Positions 51,562 through 59,362 of a stretch of 64,000 nucleotides of DNA are shown piece after piece. The position numbers and the translations under genes are program-made. Position 1 is the first letter of the stretch; every line of letters begins with the position of its first letter. Origin of the DNA: Sphingomicrobium astaxanthinifaciens (GTDB lineage Bacteria; Pseudomonadota; Alphaproteobacteria; Sphingomonadales; Sphingomonadaceae); NCBI RefSeq assembly GCF_022865105.1, contig NZ_JAKNYM010000002.1:901501-965500 (forward strand). Direction: 5' to 3'. The notes under the pieces are model-generated. The model was not told where the DNA came from, did not search any database, and saw only the letters and a list, made by a program, of their open reading frames with translations.

Positions 51562-52095
51562 TCAACTGCGCGCGAGCGCGGCGAGGCTGGCGACGGTGTT
51601 GAGGTTGCGCGCGGTGCCGCGGCCGAGGGCGGGGAGCTTCATGCGGCTGCGGCCCTGGCCCGTGGGGTAGTGCAGGTAGAGGTGGCGGGTGCCCAGTGCG
51701 ATCTGCTCGTCGGTGATGTTGGTGGCGGCCGCGATGTCGGCCTGTGTGGGGGCCTCGTCGAGGAAGAGCGCCATGACCTTGTTGCCGGGGGCATCGGGCC
51801 ACGGGTTGGCGGCGAGGAGGGCGTCCAACTCGTCAGCGGTGCGGACGAAGAGCGGGACGGGGGCGCCGACGTGGGCCTCGAGCGCAGGGCCGAGGCGGGC
51901 GCGGACCTGCGCCTCGCCGTCGTCGGTGTCGAGGAGGAGGTTGCCGCTGGCGATATAGGTGCGCGGGTCCGCATAGCCCGCCGCCGCCGCGAGCGCGCGC
52001 AGGGCATCCATCTTGAGCGGCGTGCCGGCGTTGATGGCACGGAGGAGGGTTACTTTTTCAGTTACTTCGCCTTCCTCTCGCTCGTCGTTCCTCAT
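51562..52095 (-). CDS. DUF1697 domain-containing protein
   Basis: A 177-residue protein of the DUF1697 family: KVTLLRAINAGTPLKMDALR at the start, YIASGNLLLDTDDGEAQV, FVRTADELDALLAANPW and the C-terminal RNLNTVASLAAL. The family is common in bacteria with unknown function. The only canonical start in frame is ATG at 52095, which adds MRNDEREEGEVTE before the family core and overlaps the AT-rich gene upstream by 38 bases. A strong GAGAGGAAGG sequence sits just before codon 11, where homologues would start, but the codon there is GTA, not GTG. The junction with the AT-rich segment probably changed the original start. Confidence 0.8.
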   Translation of the reverse strand: MRNDEREEGEVTEKVTLLRAINAGTPLKMDALRALAAAAGYADPRTYIASGNLLLDTDDGEAQVRARLGPALEAHVGAPVPLFVRTADELDALLAANPWPDAPGNKVMALFLDEAPTQADIAAATNITDEQIALGTRHLYLHYPTGQGRSRMKLPALGRGTARNLNTVASLAALARS

Positions 52096-53296
52096 GCCGT
52101 TTCATTCGAAAAGCAAAATACTCTGGGCCGTCATTATTGATCTTTCGTCCTCCAAACTCGTCACTGTGAGAACGATAGGTAGGCCCGAATTTCGCGGCAA
52201 ATTCGTCTTGAAAGCGTTCTAGAGTCTCAGACTCTCGCGCTTTTCTTCTCTCATTCTTAAACTCACGTTCCCAAGGCTTATGTCCATAAGGACCCCAAGC
52301 TTCAGACCGACCATTTTGGTAGCCGACATAAGTTTCGCCGCCCATGAAAAGGTTGCGTGGTTCGGGCATGAGGAGCCACTCCTTGCCGAAGCTGCTCCAA
52401 TGCGTTGTTCCGAGACGCTTCTCGGGAAACAGCCAATCTCCTTCGGACGCCGCCACAAAACGATAGGCGCGGCTCTTCATGATGAAGTTTATCTTTAGAA
52501 CTTCTTCTTCGGTGAGCAGGCGACCAGTTTGCACCTTCGTCGCGTTGAATAACGTGTCTCTCATCAAGACTTGGTTAGGATGCTGCCCCATCGGGTTTTG
52601 ATAAGGGTTTCGTGCCCACGATAGGTTCGTGAGTATCAGCAGCTTATCTGATGTAAGCGGGACTAGTGTATGGGTCCCCGCAAATCGCAAGTCAGGATCG
52701 TTTGCCCCTCCATACTTTTTCGATCCCGGAAAGGCGCCCATATTGTACTGGGTCACGGGATGGTCCGTCAGAACAAATTTGGTGGGAGAGGCTTCGGCGC
52801 TCACAATTTCCCACACCGCATCACACCATATTGCGCAATGCATCTGGGAAAGTTTTTGCAAGACTATCAACAGGGTGGGCTTGCTTCTTGTATTTGTAAG
52901 TTTCGAAAGCTGATAAAGGCCCTTGGGAGTTCTTAGTTTTTGAATACTGACAAAGGTAAGGAATGACTGGAAGGAGTCCATCAATTCGCCAGTTATTTTA
53001 TAATTTGTGAAATGCGGTAGCGCACGGCTTCCAAAGTCATCAACCTCGCCGAAAAAAAACTGCTCTATTTCAGTGTTGCGCTGATTTCATAGAGCGATGG
53101 TGTAGAGGTCATCCTCCGAGAAACACTTCTGGGTTCCCCACCTGAGAAGCCCCTTGCGTCTATATCGATGGCCATTGTTCTCAATCCACTCTGGGTTGAG
53201 GTCTAAATAATGAAAACGGTTCTGCGCATTCAGAAGAAAATTCTTCTGATACCATTGCGGTACATAGTGATTTTTTGAAAACGCCTCCCCACTCAC
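52058..53296 (-). pseudogene. DUF4238 family gene interrupted by an in-frame TGA
   Basis: The start (MSGEAFSKNHYVPQWYQKNF) with KNHYVPQ is the N-terminal hallmark of DUF4238 proteins. After 69 codons the frame hits TGA at 53087-53089, but in the same frame it continues as NQRNTEIEQFFFGEVDDFGS into a further 342 codons, including LTDHPVTQYNMG and TYVGYQNGR, to a stop at 52058. The frame is thus a single gene of 412 residues broken by one nonsense codon (L-stop-N). The segment is visibly AT-rich with poly-T and poly-A runs, unlike its neighbours, so it was probably acquired by transfer. It may be a decayed gene, a sequencing error, or a gene still expressed from an internal ATG. Confidence 0.8.
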
Positions 53297-53299
53297 TGA

Positions 53300-55684
53300 T
53301 CACCCCTCCAAACTCACAAAGCTATCCAACACGCGCTTCCGCCCCGCCTTCTCGAACTCGATCTCGAGCTTGTTGCCTTCGATCGCTTCGATCTTGCCGT
53401 AGCCGAACTTGCCGTGAAAGACGCGCATGCCGAGCTGCAAGTCATCGCGGCCCTTGTTGCCGAGGCTGACCGCGCTGCCCTTGGCTTCGATGATGCGCTG
53501 TTCGCCTTTTTCGAAGCGGCTGCTGGCGCGTTTCCAACCGGGGCCTCTAGTGCTGGCGCGGTTGGAGCCGGCGGCGGCAAGGTGGGCGAAGGGGTCTTCG
53601 AGGGGCTGGAACTGGGCCTGCCAGAGCGAGGCGCCGCCCGACATGGTCTGGTCGCTCTCGACGTGTTCGGCGGGGAGTTCGTCGACGAAGCGGCTGGGGA
53701 TGCTGCTCGTCCACTGGCCGTAGATGCGGCGGTTGGCGGCGTGGACGATCATCGCCTGTCGGCGCGCGCGGGTGATGGCGACATAGGCGAGGCGCCGTTC
53801 TTCCTCGAGGGAGGCATTGCCGCCTTCGTCGAGCGCGCGCTGCGAGGGGAAGAGGCCTTCTTCCCAGCCGGCGAGGAAGACCAGGGGGAATTCCAGGCCC
53901 TTGGCGGCGTGGATGGTCATGAGGGTGACGCGCTCGCCCGCCTTGTTGGCGTCATTGTCCATGACGAGGCTGACATGTTCGAGGAAGTCGGAGAGGGTTT
54001 CATATTCCTCCATCGCGCGGGCGAGTTCGGCGAGGTTGTCGAGGCGGCCCTGTGCCTCGGCCGATTTGTCGGCCTGGAGCATGGCGGTGTAGCCCGATTC
54101 CTCGATCACCTGCTGCATGAGCTCCGAGGGGGTGAGGGCCTTGGTGCCGCTTTCCATGAGCTGGCGGTTGTCGTCGCCGGTGGTGGGGGTGGCTGACGTG
54201 CCGGCCATCAGCGTCCGCCAGCGGGCGAAGTCGCCGACGAAGCGGCTGAGCGAATTGCGGGCGCGGGGGGTGAGTTCGTCGGTGTCGAGGATTTGCGCGG
54301 CGGCCATCAAGAGGGGGAGGCCCTGCGCCCTTGCATATTGGTGGATGGTGGCGACCGCCTTGTCGCCAAGGCCGCGCTTGGGGGTGTTGATGATGCGGTC
54401 GAAGGCGAGGTCGTCCTGCGGGGAGGCCAAGAGGCGCAGGTAGGCGATGGCGTCGCGGATCTCGGCGCGCTCGTAGAAGCGAAAACCCCCGATGATCTGG
54501 TAATCCATGCCGATGGCGATGAAGCGCTCTTCGAACTCGCGGGTCTGGTGCTGGGCGCGCACGAGGATGGCGCAGTCATCGAGGCTGCCGCCCTTGGAGA
54601 CGTGGTTCTCAATCTCCTCGGCGATGCGGCGGGCTTCCTCGGGGCCGTCCCAGACGCCGAGGACCTTGACCTTCTCGCCCATGCCCGCGTCGGTCCACAG
54701 TTCCTTGCCGAGGCGGCCGCTGTTGTGCGCGATCACCCCGCTGGCGGCGGCGAGGATGTGGCCGGTGCTGCGGTAATTCTGTTCGAGGCGAACGATCTTG
54801 GCGCCGGGGAAGTCGCGCTCGAAGCGCAGGATGTTGGAGACGTCGGCACCGCGCCACGAGTAGATCGACTGGTCGTCGTCGCCGACGCAGGCGATGTTGT
54901 TTTCGGGGGAGGCGAGGAGCCTCAGCCACTCATACTGGCTGGCGTTGGTATCCTGATATTCGTCGACCATGAGATACTTGAAGCGGTCGCGCCATTGCTC
55001 GAGGACGTCCGCATGGCTCTTGAAGATGGTGAGCATGTGGAGGAGCAGGTCGCCGAAGTCGCAGGCGTTCACGGCCTTCAGCCGCTCCTGATATTGGGCG
55101 TAGAGGTCGGCGCCCTTGCCGTCGGCATAGGCCTGTGCGTCGGCGGCATCGACTTGGGACGCGGTGAGGCCCTTGTTCTTCCACTGGTCGATCAGGCCTG
55201 CGAGCGCGCGGGGCGGCCAGCGCTTGGGGTCGATCTGCGCGGCCTCGACGAGCTGCTTCAACAGGCGCAGCTGGTCGTCGGTGTCGATGATCGTGAAGTT
55301 GGGCTGGAGGCCGACGAGTTCGGCGTGGCGGCGGAGCATGCGCGCGCATACGGAGTGGAAGGTGCCGAGCCAGGGCATGTTGTCGACCGCGCCGCCGGTG
55401 ATCTTCGCCACACGCTCCTTCATCTCGCGCGCCGCCTTGTTGGTGAAGGTGACGGCGAGGATCTGGCTCGGCCAGGCTCTACGGGTGGCGATAAGATGGG
55501 CGAGGCGGGCAGTCAGCGTGGCGGTCTTGCCCGTGCCCGCGCCCGCGAGGATGAGGACGGGGCCGTCGAGGGTGGTCGCGGCCTCGAGCTGCGCAGGGTT
55601 GAGGTGCGCGAGATAGGCGGGCGTTTCGGCGGGCAGGGGAGGCGAAGATTCGGTCACGGGTGACAGGTAGGGCGGGGAGAACAT
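53300..55684 (-). CDS. ATP-dependent DNA helicase UvrD/PcrA
   Basis: A 794-residue superfamily 1A helicase, 3' to 5', for repair and replication restart. Motifs in order: LNPAQLEAATTLDGP (Q motif), LAGAGTGKTATLTARLA (Walker A), FTNKAAREMKERV (Ia), DEYQDTNASQYEWL (II), GDDDQSIYSWRGA (III), LEQNYRSTGH (IV), TIHAAKGLEFPLVFL (V) and LAYVAITRARRQ (VI). The C-terminus ends in a Tudor-like GMRVFHGKFGYGKIEAIEG, typical for UvrD/PcrA that bind RNA polymerase. Start is ATG at 55684 or GTG at 55657; neither has a strong ribosome-binding site. The last bases lie 4 bases from the broken DUF4238 gene. Confidence 0.95.
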   Translation of the reverse strand: MFSPPYLSPVTESSPPLPAETPAYLAHLNPAQLEAATTLDGPVLILAGAGTGKTATLTARLAHLIATRRAWPSQILAVTFTNKAAREMKERVAKITGGAVDNMPWLGTFHSVCARMLRRHAELVGLQPNFTIIDTDDQLRLLKQLVEAAQIDPKRWPPRALAGLIDQWKNKGLTASQVDAADAQAYADGKGADLYAQYQERLKAVNACDFGDLLLHMLTIFKSHADVLEQWRDRFKYLMVDEYQDTNASQYEWLRLLASPENNIACVGDDDQSIYSWRGADVSNILRFERDFPGAKIVRLEQNYRSTGHILAAASGVIAHNSGRLGKELWTDAGMGEKVKVLGVWDGPEEARRIAEEIENHVSKGGSLDDCAILVRAQHQTREFEERFIAIGMDYQIIGGFRFYERAEIRDAIAYLRLLASPQDDLAFDRIINTPKRGLGDKAVATIHQYARAQGLPLLMAAAQILDTDELTPRARNSLSRFVGDFARWRTLMAGTSATPTTGDDNRQLMESGTKALTPSELMQQVIEESGYTAMLQADKSAEAQGRLDNLAELARAMEEYETLSDFLEHVSLVMDNDANKAGERVTLMTIHAAKGLEFPLVFLAGWEEGLFPSQRALDEGGNASLEEERRLAYVAITRARRQAMIVHAANRRIYGQWTSSIPSRFVDELPAEHVESDQTMSGGASLWQAQFQPLEDPFAHLAAAGSNRASTRGPGWKRASSRFEKGEQRIIEAKGSAVSLGNKGRDDLQLGMRVFHGKFGYGKIEAIEGNKLEIEFEKAGRKRVLDSFVSLEG

Positions 55685-55892
55685 TCAGGCAACCCGGTCG
55701 ATAGACGCGGAGTCGACGGGGCGACTCGGGGGCGCGGTGAACGAGCGGTTTTCGAGTCGCGGGCGCTATTCGCGCTTGCGAATCGGCTGGTCGGGGGCTA
55801 GAGGCGCGGCTGAACTGGGGTCGTGCCCGCAAATTTTGCCTACTTATGCGCGATATCCCCGTTATCCACAGGCCGAAACACCTTTTAACCGG

Positions 55893-55921
55893 TTGGAAAT
55901 CCGGCCGAATCGCGACATATT
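55893..55921 (+). promoter_or_regulatory. promoter of the unidentified ncRNA
   Basis: TTGGAA at 55893-55898 and CATATT at 55916-55921 are separated by 17 bases, the optimal sigma-70 spacing, in a locally AT-richer stretch. Seven to eight bases downstream the first stem of the predicted RNA begins (55930). No reading frame of quality follows. Confidence 0.6.
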
Positions 55922-55928
55922 GAAATTG

Positions 55929-56475
55929 TGATCGGGACGAACCGCCCGGGCCCCTCGGGGCAAGGAAACGGAAGTCCCGATCTCCGCCGGCAGGCGAGGG
56001 CACGCAAGCCTGGGAGGAGCGCTGAAGGATCTTCGGATCCGGCAAGCGTGTCGAGACCCGGAAACTTACTGGCCAGACCAGCCGGTCGGACGGCACCGGA
56101 AGAACCGGGGTGCCTAACGCAGCCGCGCTGCACCGTCCTTCGGGGCGGGGGAGCGAAGGGCGCGAAGGTCCCGGTCCAGGAAGGGCCGCGACGAGCCGCC
56201 GGGACGCGATCCGCTTGACGGATCGGTTGCGGAGGGAAGGGCACGGAGCCTGTCGTGAGTGAGAGCTCGCAACAGGCGAAGCGCTTCGACCCGAGGTGAA
56301 GCCCCTGCATGGGGGCAGGCCGGGCGGTAACGAGCGACGCCTGAGCGGGCGCGCAAGGATGGCGATGGGCGCCGCGGAAAGCCTTCGGGCGGAACGCGAC
56401 GAACCCGGGCCAAGACCGGCAAGCCGGCTCGGTGCCAAGATGGGGGTCAGCAGCGATGCTGGCCCCCATTTCTTT
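55929..56475 (+). ncRNA. unidentified structured RNA, about 547 nt
   Basis: A gene-free region with a run of stem-loops between a promoter-like element and an intrinsic terminator. The first helix GATCGGGAC (55930-55938)/GTCCCGATC (55974-55982) encloses a small GCCCC/GGGGC hairpin. Others include CAGGC/GCCTG near 55991-56011; GGATC-TTCG-GATCC at 56028-56041; GGACGG/CCGTCC closing a junction at 56087-56138 with GGCACC/GGTGCC inside; GTCCCGG/CCGGGAC at 56168-56215; CGATCCG-CTTGA-CGGATCG at 56207-56225; GCCTGT/ACAGGC at 56248-56277; GCCCC/GGGGC at 56301-56316; GCC-TTCG-GGC at 56381-56390 and CCGGC-AA-GCCGG at 56416-56427. It lacks the GAGGAAAGTCC and ACAGAA blocks of RNase P RNA and shows no tmRNA tag. 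Stop codons and shifting frames argue against translation. Function unknown. Confidence 0.6.
56442..56475 (+). terminator. intrinsic terminator of the ncRNA
   Basis: GGGGGTCAGC at 56442-56451 pairs with GCTGGCCCCC at 56458-56467 (one U-G pair), loop AGCGAT, followed by ATTTCTTT. On the minus strand the following bases are not T-rich, so it belongs to plus-strand transcription. Confidence 0.9.
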
Positions 56476-56621
56476 GCCCAGACCCGCGGCACGCGCCGAC
56501 CGGCACGAGGACACTCTTTCGAGGCACTGACCGAGCGCTCGCTCGTGGCGCTGCTCGAAGCGCGGCGCGCGGTGCTGGTGCGTGGGCTCGATCGGGCGGG
56601 GCGTGGCCGGCGTCGCGGCGG

Positions 56622-57098
56622 TCAGGCGGCGGCTTCGTCGGAGCGCTTTCTATTGGCCTGGGCGACGATGCGGCGGAACCGCTTGGCGTTGAGCGCGAAC
56701 AGCTCGGTCGCTTCATCGATCATGAGCCGGACCTGCGCCGACAGATCGGCGGGCGACGCCGCCTCGGCGAGCCGGCCCGCGAGCTGGTCGTCGCACGCCG
56801 CGAGGCGCTCGAGCAGCGGTCCATGCTCGTCCCCTTCCGCTTCCAGCTCGGCCGGCAGCGAGAAGCAGGCGGTGGGGAGGCCCGGCGGTTCGGCGTCGGC
56901 GGGCGGCGCCTCGAGATCGGCGAGCTGGCGGCGGGTCCGCGCCGCCAGCATATCGCGCCGGGCGCAGCATTCCTCGAGGATCTTGACGATCTGCTTGTTG
57001 GACAGGCAGGCGCAGACGCGGCGGATGAGCACCGCGCTTCCTTCCGCTGCTTCGAGCAGCAGCCGAAGCAGTCGCGCATCGTCGGGTCGTCCGAGCAT
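56622..57098 (-). CDS. hypothetical helical protein
   Basis: A 158-residue soluble protein, almost all alpha-helix, with a leucine-rich start (DDARLLRLLLEAAEGSAVL) followed by CACLSNKQIVKILEECCARR, which holds five cysteines in 20 residues, and a C-terminal basic helix (FRRIVAQANRKRS). The helical bundle layout recalls four-helix DUF2383-like proteins, but I cannot support the assignment. It faces the ncRNA region tail on. No ribosome-binding site stands out. Confidence 0.55.
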   Translation of the reverse strand: MLGRPDDARLLRLLLEAAEGSAVLIRRVCACLSNKQIVKILEECCARRDMLAARTRRQLADLEAPPADAEPPGLPTACFSLPAELEAEGDEHGPLLERLAACDDQLAGRLAEAASPADLSAQVRLMIDEATELFALNAKRFRRIVAQANRKRSDEAAA

Positions 57099-57250: not shown

Positions 57251-57991
57251 TCAGCGGCCGGTCATCTCGCGCACGCGGTCGGCGTAGAGCCGTCCCACCG
57301 GCTGTTCGCGCCCGTCGGCGAGCTGGGCGACCCAGCGCCCCGAGGCATTGCGCGAGAAGCCCGTGACGAAGTCGCGGCGGACGATCGCCGAGCGGTGCAG
57401 GCGCACGAAGAGCGAAGGGTCGAGCCCCTTCTCGAGCGCGGTCATCGAATGGTGGATCAGCCAGCTGCGCTCGCCGACATGGAGCCGCATATAGTCGCGT
57501 TCCGCCGAGACGCGGTCGATGTCGGCGGCGGCGATGCGGACCAGCCCCGACAGGTCGGAGGCCCAGAATTCGGTCAGCCAGCGCGCGCCCTCGTCCTCGC
57601 GCGCGGCGGCAGGCTGGCGATTGGCCAGGACGATCCGGGCGCGCTCGATCGCCTCGTGCAGCCGCGCCCGCTCGACGGGTTTCACCAGATAGTCGACCGC
57701 CGCCACCTCGAACGCGGCCACCGCGAATCGATCGTAGGCGGTGACGAAGATCACCACCGGGCGCGGCTCGCTGGCGGCCAGCGTACGCGCGACCTCGATC
57801 CCGTCCTGTCCGGGCATCGAGATGTCGAGCAGGACGAGGTCGGGCTTGTGCGCCTGCGCCAGCGCGACGGCCTCGTCGCCGTCCTCGGCGATGCCGACGC
57901 GCTCGAGGTCCTCGATCGGGTCGAGCAGCGCGACGAGGCGGTCCGCGGCGAGCGGCTCGTCGTCGGCGATGAGGACCTTAAGCGCGCTCAT
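57251..57991 (-). CDS. LytTR family response regulator
   Basis: A 246-residue two-domain regulator. The receiver has VLIADDEPLAADRL, the phosphorylated aspartate in DLVLLDISMPGQDGI, and the conserved lysine in VDYLVKPVERAR. The DNA-binding LytTR domain shows VSAERDYMRLHVGERSWLIH and VRLHRSAIVRRDFVTGF. It is read directly after its sensor kinase, overlapping it by 14 bases, as in AlgR/LytR systems. The targets are unknown. Confidence 0.94.
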   Translation of the reverse strand: MSALKVLIADDEPLAADRLVALLDPIEDLERVGIAEDGDEAVALAQAHKPDLVLLDISMPGQDGIEVARTLAASEPRPVVIFVTAYDRFAVAAFEVAAVDYLVKPVERARLHEAIERARIVLANRQPAAAREDEGARWLTEFWASDLSGLVRIAAADIDRVSAERDYMRLHVGERSWLIHHSMTALEKGLDPSLFVRLHRSAIVRRDFVTGFSRNASGRWVAQLADGREQPVGRLYADRVREMTGR

Positions 57992-59204
57992 CGGCGGCCT
58001 CCTTGATCACGGGAATGTCGAGCCCCACCCGGAACCCCCCTTCCACCGGGGTCGCCTGGCAGGTCGCGGCGGGGCCGAAATGGGCCAGCAGCCGTTCGCG
58101 CACGTTGGTCAGCCCGGTGCCGGTCCCGGTCGGCGCCGCGCGCTTGCCGGCCTTATCGGTGGGCACCGTGTTGAAGACGCTGAGCCGCGCGCGGTCGGGC
58201 CCGTACGCGCTGGCGGCGATGGCGACGGTGACCGGATCGCGGGTGCGACTGACACCATATTTGATCGCATTCTCGACCAGCGGCTGGAGGATGAGCGCGG
58301 GGATGCGCAGGTCGGCAAGCGCATCGGGCACGTCGATCGAGACGTCGAGCCGCTTGGGGAAGCGGCGCTGTTCGATCTCGAGATAGAGCCGCTGCAATTC
58401 GATCTCGCGCTCGAGCGTGATGCTCTCCGACGGGTCAAGCGAGAGCGAGGTGCGAAAGAAGGTCGACAGCGCGATGAGCATTTCCTCGGCCTGCTCGTTG
58501 CGCCCGGTCATCACCAGCGAGGACAGGCTGTTCAAGGTGTTGAAGAGGAAGTGCGGGTTGACCTGGTAGCGCAGCGCGCGGACGTGCGCGGCCTGCGTCG
58601 CGGCCTCGGCCTGCGCGAGGCGGCGCTGTGCCTGTTCGGCGCGGCCCGCGCTGTCCATCGCCAGATAGACCCCGCTCCACGCGAGAAAGAAGAAGAGCCA
58701 GACGACCGCCGCGTCGGCGGCGATCCGCACCCGGCCCATGCGGTCGAGCTCGTCGAGCCGGGGCAGGGTGAAGATCATCGGCGCCTCGCCCGAATGGCGC
58801 TGGATGCGGATCTCGTTGCCCTTTTGCACGATGACCGCGCCCTCGCGTGCCTCGATGCGATATTCCTCGCCCGCGTCCTTGCGATCGGCGGCGGTGGAGA
58901 TGACGAACATCGCCTGCGCGATCGCGGCGAGCGCGGAGGCGCCGAGCGCGACTGCGGCGCGCCAGCGTATCGGCGCCTCGGGCCGCACCGCGCGCAACGT
59001 CAGGTAGATGCAAAGCGTCAACAGGATGCCGACGCCGATCGAAGGCATGCGATTGGCGAGCACCTCGGTAAAACTGCCGACCAGCGCGGCGCGGCCGATC
59101 ACGGTCGCCAGATAGGTCGCCCAGAACAGGACGATCGACAGGAGCGCGATCCGCCAGTCGGCGAACAGCGAGCGCGAGGCGGTGGAGATCGGGGCGTGAC
59201 GCAT
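57978..59204 (-). CDS. LytS-like sensor histidine kinase (His_kinase/HATPase)
   Basis: A 408-residue membrane sensor. About four N-terminal hydrophobic helices (IALLSIVLFWATYLATVI; VGILLTLCIYLTL; AVALGASALAAIAQAMFVI; AAVVWLFFFLAWSGVYLA) flank a short loop. The His_kinase domain has the histidine in YQVNPHFLFNTLNSLSSLV, and the HATPase domain has QPLVENAIKYGV and TGTGLTNVRERL. It autophosphorylates and passes the phosphate to the overlapping LytTR regulator. ATG at 59204 is preferred over an upstream open frame. The sensed signal is not apparent. Confidence 0.93.
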   Translation of the reverse strand: MRHAPISTASRSLFADWRIALLSIVLFWATYLATVIGRAALVGSFTEVLANRMPSIGVGILLTLCIYLTLRAVRPEAPIRWRAAVALGASALAAIAQAMFVISTAADRKDAGEEYRIEAREGAVIVQKGNEIRIQRHSGEAPMIFTLPRLDELDRMGRVRIAADAAVVWLFFFLAWSGVYLAMDSAGRAEQAQRRLAQAEAATQAAHVRALRYQVNPHFLFNTLNSLSSLVMTGRNEQAEEMLIALSTFFRTSLSLDPSESITLEREIELQRLYLEIEQRRFPKRLDVSIDVPDALADLRIPALILQPLVENAIKYGVSRTRDPVTVAIAASAYGPDRARLSVFNTVPTDKAGKRAAPTGTGTGLTNVRERLLAHFGPAATCQATPVEGGFRVGLDIPVIKEAADERA

Positions 59205-59362
59205 TGCGCCAAGTCTAGCCCCGCGCGGCGCCCCCCGCCAGCCTCCGGGGGGCGGTTCATCGAAGCGCGGGGGCGCTATGCAGAAGCGCCGTGCGAGGGA
59301 ACGGGCGCGCGCGCTGGGCCGTTGGTCGAGCGATCGAGGACTTCCCAAGGAAAGAGACGCTG

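Follow-up and report, generated by a model that had tools for sequence, protein, structure and literature searches.

The 64,000-nt stretch of Sphingomicrobium astaxanthinifaciens DNA analysed in this work (the window) contains a predicted structured noncoding RNA gene on the plus strand, in the gap between uvrD/pcrA (53300-55684, minus strand), which is divergent from it, and a gene for a hypothetical protein (56622-57098, minus strand; no Pfam or NCBIfam match), which is convergent with it. The original prediction had named both neighbours correctly and had placed a large structured RNA of no recognised family between them. Beyond the hypothetical gene lie a LytTR response regulator gene (57251-57991, minus strand) and an adjoining putative sensor-kinase gene (57978-59348), and among the loci read the LytTR gene stands beside the RNA only in near relatives. 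Adjacent to uvrD, within an island of 46-57% GC in a window of 69% GC, lies a DUF4238 gene (52058-52984 and 53087-53296, minus strand), the C-terminal part of which matches PF14022 and an N-terminal-looking piece of which is in another frame; this gene was probably acquired and broken. The features of the RNA locus are as follows:

55844-55852, plus: degenerate third 9-mer, TTATGCGCG, adjoining the tandem 9-mers
55853-55870, plus: tandem DnaA-type 9-mers, ATATCCCCG followed by the perfect DnaA box TTATCCACA (55862-55870), with 57 bases from box to RNA start
55893-55921, plus: sigma-70-type promoter, TTGGAA (55893-55898), 17 bases, CATATT (55916-55921); -35/-10 region aligned in homologues
55906-55912, plus: CGAATCG, containing GANTC (55907-55911); reads CGATTCG on the other strand, in agreement with the extended GcrA/CcrM motif YGAKTCG
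55928-56475, plus: predicted structured noncoding RNA, about 548 nt, identified by homologues, fold z of -4.9 and covariation
55930-55982, plus: 5' domain, helix P1 pairing GATCGGGAC (55930-55938) with GTCCCGATC (55974-55982), variable hairpin between
56092-56104, plus: conserved core strand GGCACCGGAAGAA, family consensus GGCGCCGGAAGAG, from the alignment and readable in other genera too
56105-56174, plus: helix P3, CCGGG (56105-56109) with CCCGG (56170-56174), variable hairpins between
56175-56188, plus: conserved core strand TCCAGGAAGGGCCG, consensus CCCAAGAAGGGCCG, with a small 3-bp hairpin that is 100% paired
56189-56333, plus: variable insertion domain, 41 to 311 nt across the family by segment length
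56334-56434, plus: 3' domain, CGCC-u-GAG (within 56334-56345) paired with CTCGGTG (56428-56434)
56440-56476, plus: intrinsic terminator hairpin and T-rich tail, 99.8% paired, double-sided changes at five pairs

Anatomy of the predicted RNA

The promoter is present at the hexamers and spacing originally described, and the first helix opens at 55930, 8 bases past the promoter, as predicted. The predicted transcript, from 55928 to about 56475, is 548 nt, in place of the approximately 547 nt first estimated, and the terminator is likewise present (hairpin at 56440-56469, followed by TTTCTTT), but with a stem of 13 bp that includes one U-G pair rather than a stem of 10 bp. The window copy has three C(UUCG)G loops where two had been described. 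The predicted folding energy is -296.9 kcal/mol (z = -4.9 vs. 100 dinucleotide shuffles, 0 of 100 being as stable). A coding frame with a GTG start at 55928 was rejected: it is not conserved, and first-segment lengths in the family span all values modulo 3.

Homologues and family range

Comparison by blastn with 60 relatives detected the RNA locus in 28 of the 36 that belong to the same genus, and a promoter model matched in 27 of 27 genus members from a separate genome draw. Further copies came from an order-wide motif search and a promoter-start pattern scan, the latter returning mostly unrelated Pseudomonas sequence. Removal of duplicates left 43 distinct full copies of 345-732 nt, comprising 41 from the genus of the window (one of them named Sphingomonas alba SE158) together with S. 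changbaiensis and S. horti, of a sister genus. All are built on six blocks in constant order (GTGATCGG, CCGATCTCC, GGCGCCGGAAGAG, CCCAAGAAGGGCCG, GCGACGCCTGAG and CTCGGCGC) plus the terminator; length varies mostly in the single insertion domain and less in other segments.

To describe the reach of the family we used two models that have no sequence in common: R1, a model of the 3' end, and R3, a model of the promoter without structure. Matches to R1 and R3 on the same strand, promoter first and approximately 0.3-0.8 kb apart, were paired by hand in 20 genomes from 12 genera of one family, and distant copies are present in more than ten other genera of the Sphingomonadaceae. The core blocks are still readable in some of these genera (six loci, L152-L156 and L158), and elsewhere only the promoter and 3' end are; the interior of the RNA can thus diverge far while its promoter and 3' end remain recognisable. 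The R3 cassette is not universal: of 398 genomes in the order, no more than 87 show it, a number that falls when the threshold is strict, and matches under about 30 bits among the 87 are uncertain short partials. Because R3 gave short partial matches only, up to 30 bits, in 289 genomes of the class outside the order, there is no evidence for the RNA outside Sphingomonadales. Matches to R1 that score below about 45 bits mostly consist of a terminator alone, and the R1 tally of 166 of 250 is not readable as presence; one such match occurs in the window genome itself (C2:532510-532567), and hairpins closely resembling the terminator of the RNA, in this genome and family-wide, give rise to false positives among the many R1 matches of 30-45 bits.

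Three genomes were seen to carry two copies of the RNA, inverted in G384 (L261, C1:1041000-1045500) and in tandem in G536 (C57:22505-23026) and G507 (C2:1374610-1375125). Three much longer possible relatives in another genus, g31 (L170, L172 and L173), have the 3' end GGCGCAGTGGGGGCCGACAGCAATGTC in common but carry TTATGCACAGG and show no clear GANTC cassette.

Covariation and secondary structure

Compensatory change was assessed with a phylogeny-aware test of our own design, in which column substitutions were randomised on the tree to give 30 null alignments. One P3 pair scores 71.5 and one terminator pair 54.9, as compared to a top null score of 47.2. In helix P3, 94.6% of cells are paired and all five pairs exhibit double-sided changes, in 61 cells; for P3 and the adjacent small hairpin taken together, 96.7% of cells pair, and the 61 double-sided changes stand against 20±4.4 for shuffled and no more than 17 for slid controls. 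In the basal 3' helix, 99.6% of cells are paired over 40 sequences, and for this helix together with the terminator 99.7% are paired, with 25 double-sided changes vs. 3.3±1.6. The basal 3' helix is almost invariant in the genus; it is lengthened in unrelated sequence by 7 pairs in one locus (L156, 14 bp) and by 5 pairs in another (L108, 12 bp). An alternative pairing of GGCGCC (56092) with GGCGC (56431) was dropped, GCGACGCCTGAG taking that partner in a helix that extends in unrelated sequence in other genera. The P1 motif, GTGATCGG...CCGATC, is invariant within the genus, and pair 10-88 of the core alignment, in P1, is CG in 30 copies and GC in 6.

Across 55 family members the median fold z is -4.0, and stable tetraloops are in large excess: GCAA loops number 107 vs. 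1.8 expected and UUCG loops 101 vs. 0.4, with GNRA and UUCG loops overall 60-250 times over expectation. Compensatory changes beyond both shuffled and slid controls, the mark of a structured noncoding RNA gene, are thus observed, as the original prediction had anticipated for homologues. From the 5' end, the fold predicted by the comparison begins with a domain that P1 closes, continues through a conserved core built around P3 and an expansion domain that differs between lineages, and ends in a 3' domain that the CGCC(U)GAG helix closes next to the terminator. Outside a few genera the interior sequences are too divergent to align, and a common interior structure is claimed for the alignable genera.

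Relation to known RNA families

Rfam 15 yields no match at gathering score to the window RNA, and none to the RNA proper when E values up to 5 are admitted; in other genera, none of 20 homologous loci has an Rfam match at the RNA. The original reading, that the RNA does not match RNase P RNA, tmRNA or 6S RNA, holds. No RF00010 match is present at the locus (E<=5), and a full rnpB scoring 271 bits is present elsewhere in the genome; the loose likeness to RNase P remarked on earlier is due to chance, AAGTCC being the 3' strand of the first helix. The alpha-type tmRNA gene is at C2:967474-967824, approximately 9.5 kb downstream of the RNA, and there is none at the RNA locus. A 6S-like match (41.7 bits, just below gathering score) is at C2:1187259, and the window RNA has several closed domains, not the one long interrupted hairpin of 6S RNA (RF00013). 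The suggestion that the RNA is catalytic gained no support. A sub-threshold match (51 bits, E 1e-7) to the Caulobacter sRNA CC2171 (RF01867) was seen at L158:2857-3020 (minus strand), within about 1.5 kb of the RNA at that locus. Neither the main text of structured-RNA discovery papers nor a keyword search of the literature yielded a description of the RNA.

We conclude that the locus very probably contains a genuine gene for a structured RNA, autonomous and belonging to a family that is absent from Rfam.

Neighbours and autonomy

Within the genus, nearly every copy of the RNA is oriented divergently from uvrD/pcrA, and uvrD is present at 39 of the 43 loci; downstream genes vary. In other genera the neighbours are entirely different, and uvrD/pcrA adjoins the RNA only in its own genus. 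The conserved same-strand downstream gene that would mark a cis-leader or riboswitch was not found at the RNA loci. The copies are chromosomal, synteny is stable inside the genus, and no plasmid or phage relative of the window copy was found, which argues against the link to mobile DNA once proposed and against a mobile-element RNA (group II intron, ROOL or GOLLD). The loci compared establish the predicted RNA gene as autonomous and, as a rule, single-copy. Because it has no constant neighbour and has its own terminator, the RNA would be expected to act in trans. The gene does not appear to be a replication origin, since sign changes in GC skew, sampled along two complete genomes (G017 and G417) in noisy 20-kb samples, lie far from it.

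A conserved promoter cassette with DnaA-type and GANTC sites

The most conserved upstream DNA is the DnaA-type cassette at 55853-55870, which the original prediction did not include. The box TTATCCACA, which occurs three times in the whole genome containing the window, is exact in 57 of 67 promoters, with fixed spacing; a box at a fixed distance from the start is the arrangement that marks a DnaA-controlled promoter, and DnaA control is a candidate mechanism here. The order of the cassette is ATATCCCCG-TTATCCACA, approximately 28 bases, and CGACTCG just past the -35 hexamer, with the start approximately 28 bases after GACTC begins. GANTC is present in 60 of 67 promoters, in 57 of them at +37 to +39 from the box and mostly as extended CGACTCG, as compared to a chance expectation of about 0.7% in a 9-base slot. 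The extended motif YGAKTCG is reported for GcrA-activated promoters (PMC7987155), and CGACTCG, read on the opposite strand, fits it. GcrA and a CcrM-type methylase are encoded in the window genome. The spacing of DnaA box and GANTC is kept in other genera with different flanking genes. In two loci of genus g47 (L161 and L163) the tandem arrangement gives way to a pair of perfect DnaA boxes in inverted orientation, TTATCCACA and TGTGGATAA, at a different distance from GACTC.

The subclade of the window departs from this pattern: its seven copies (L002-L008) are without GANTC at the conserved position, and only the window copy (L002) has one nearby, the CGAATCG listed above, which lies approximately 8 bases downstream of the position conserved elsewhere and is not significant alone. 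The -10 elements of these copies (CATATT, CATAAA and CATAAC) appear by eye to be nearer consensus than those of many copies in which the site is retained, which would fit promoters that no longer need the activator. The cassette is established as a conserved element of the promoter, and the sites are best read as used by DnaA, joined in most lineages by GcrA/CcrM, a moderately probable reading.

Discussion

According to the reading that we prefer, RNA polymerase would initiate near 55928 and be released by the terminator near 56475; the promoter would be activated or gated by DnaA on the upstream box, the centre of which lies approximately 62 bases before the start; and in most relatives GcrA bound to CcrM-methylated GANTC just past the -35 hexamer would also activate or gate it. 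RNA output would then track replication initiation and fork passage. The RNA would most likely act in trans, as a stable ribonucleoprotein or a base-pairing regulator coupling some process to S phase. Taken whole, this reading is of a structural RNA that acts in trans, is normally encoded by one gene copy and has its transcription tied to replication through DnaA and usually GcrA/CcrM; its prospect of being correct is slightly better than even. Control of a promoter by DnaA need not mean that the structured RNA acts in step with the cell cycle, and the more specific proposal, that it serves the alphaproteobacterial cell-cycle circuit or the replication machinery as an RNA component, its transcription timed by DnaA and the methylation state of the promoter, is tentative and, as it stands, rather doubtful.

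A sizeable minority chance attaches to a constitutive housekeeping RNA, a scaffold or ribozyme with a task unrelated to the cell cycle, whose DnaA and GcrA sites would do no more than adjust expression to growth. The rigid core, lineage-specific expansions and many GNRA and UUCG loops resemble those of stable structural RNAs, and the loss of the conserved GANTC from the subclade of the window fits as well; however, no DNA at the locus is more conserved than the DnaA box, the spacing of which is kept after relocation of the gene between genera. The cell-cycle-type promoter would also suit a base-pairing regulator that tunes translation of cell-cycle regulators, for which Caulobacter CcnA, a noncoding RNA acting on ctrA and gcrA mRNAs, is a precedent (PMC8959179), but the window RNA is far longer than a typical small RNA, is heavily paired and, unlike ccnA, lies away from the origin, and we consider this alternative improbable.

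It is very improbable that the DNA is the functional part, as a locus that titrates or reactivates DnaA and is transcribed incidentally: the tandem DnaA-type boxes and the two perfect inverted boxes of the g47 loci would fit, but compensatory changes in RNA helices, the tetraloop excess, the locking of box spacing to the promoter and the usual presence of one perfect box argue against it. A cis-acting leader or attenuator is largely refuted and barely credible: the RNA ends in a terminator, and at one locus (L040) a co-oriented transporter-like gene comes next, but in the window the next gene downstream is encoded on the opposite strand, and downstream genes are not conserved. Equally negligible is a protein sponge of the CsrB/RsmZ type; the many hairpins recall one, but the genome has no CsrA and unpaired GGA is at 1.4 times expectation, which refutes this reading for CsrA.

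Large structured RNAs are seldom newly found in bacteria, and several of those already known turned out to be core machines. The present RNA occurs across a family of soil and water bacteria that can be cultured and lies outside Rfam 15, and its promoter, as we prefer to read it, predicts that transcription would rise with replication initiation and would be DnaA-dependent and, in most species, dependent on CcrM methylation. A role in the cell cycle or replication, if true, would be of a kind not described for a large structured RNA.

The likeness to known RNAs is in each case partial. RNase P RNA belongs to the same length class and also combines a conserved core with variable peripheral domains; 6S RNA and tmRNA are likewise stable, trans-acting RNAs, but are accounted for at their separate loci. 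BjrC68 (RF02353), the only Rfam family to overlap the RNA, resembles it in the terminator hairpin, its sub-threshold match (18.6 bits vs. a gathering score of 39) being confined to 61 bases there. OLE, ROOL and GOLLD (PMC12286853) are similarly several hundred nucleotides long, intricately folded and rare, whereas the window RNA has no Rfam match, no sign of phage or plasmid linkage and no constant partner gene. CcnA of Caulobacter crescentus, compared by promoter and location, is likewise an alphaproteobacterial noncoding RNA with a promoter tied to master cell-cycle regulators; it lies within the replication origin and is presumably activated by CtrA (PMC8959179), whereas the window RNA lies off the origin and carries DnaA and GANTC sites.
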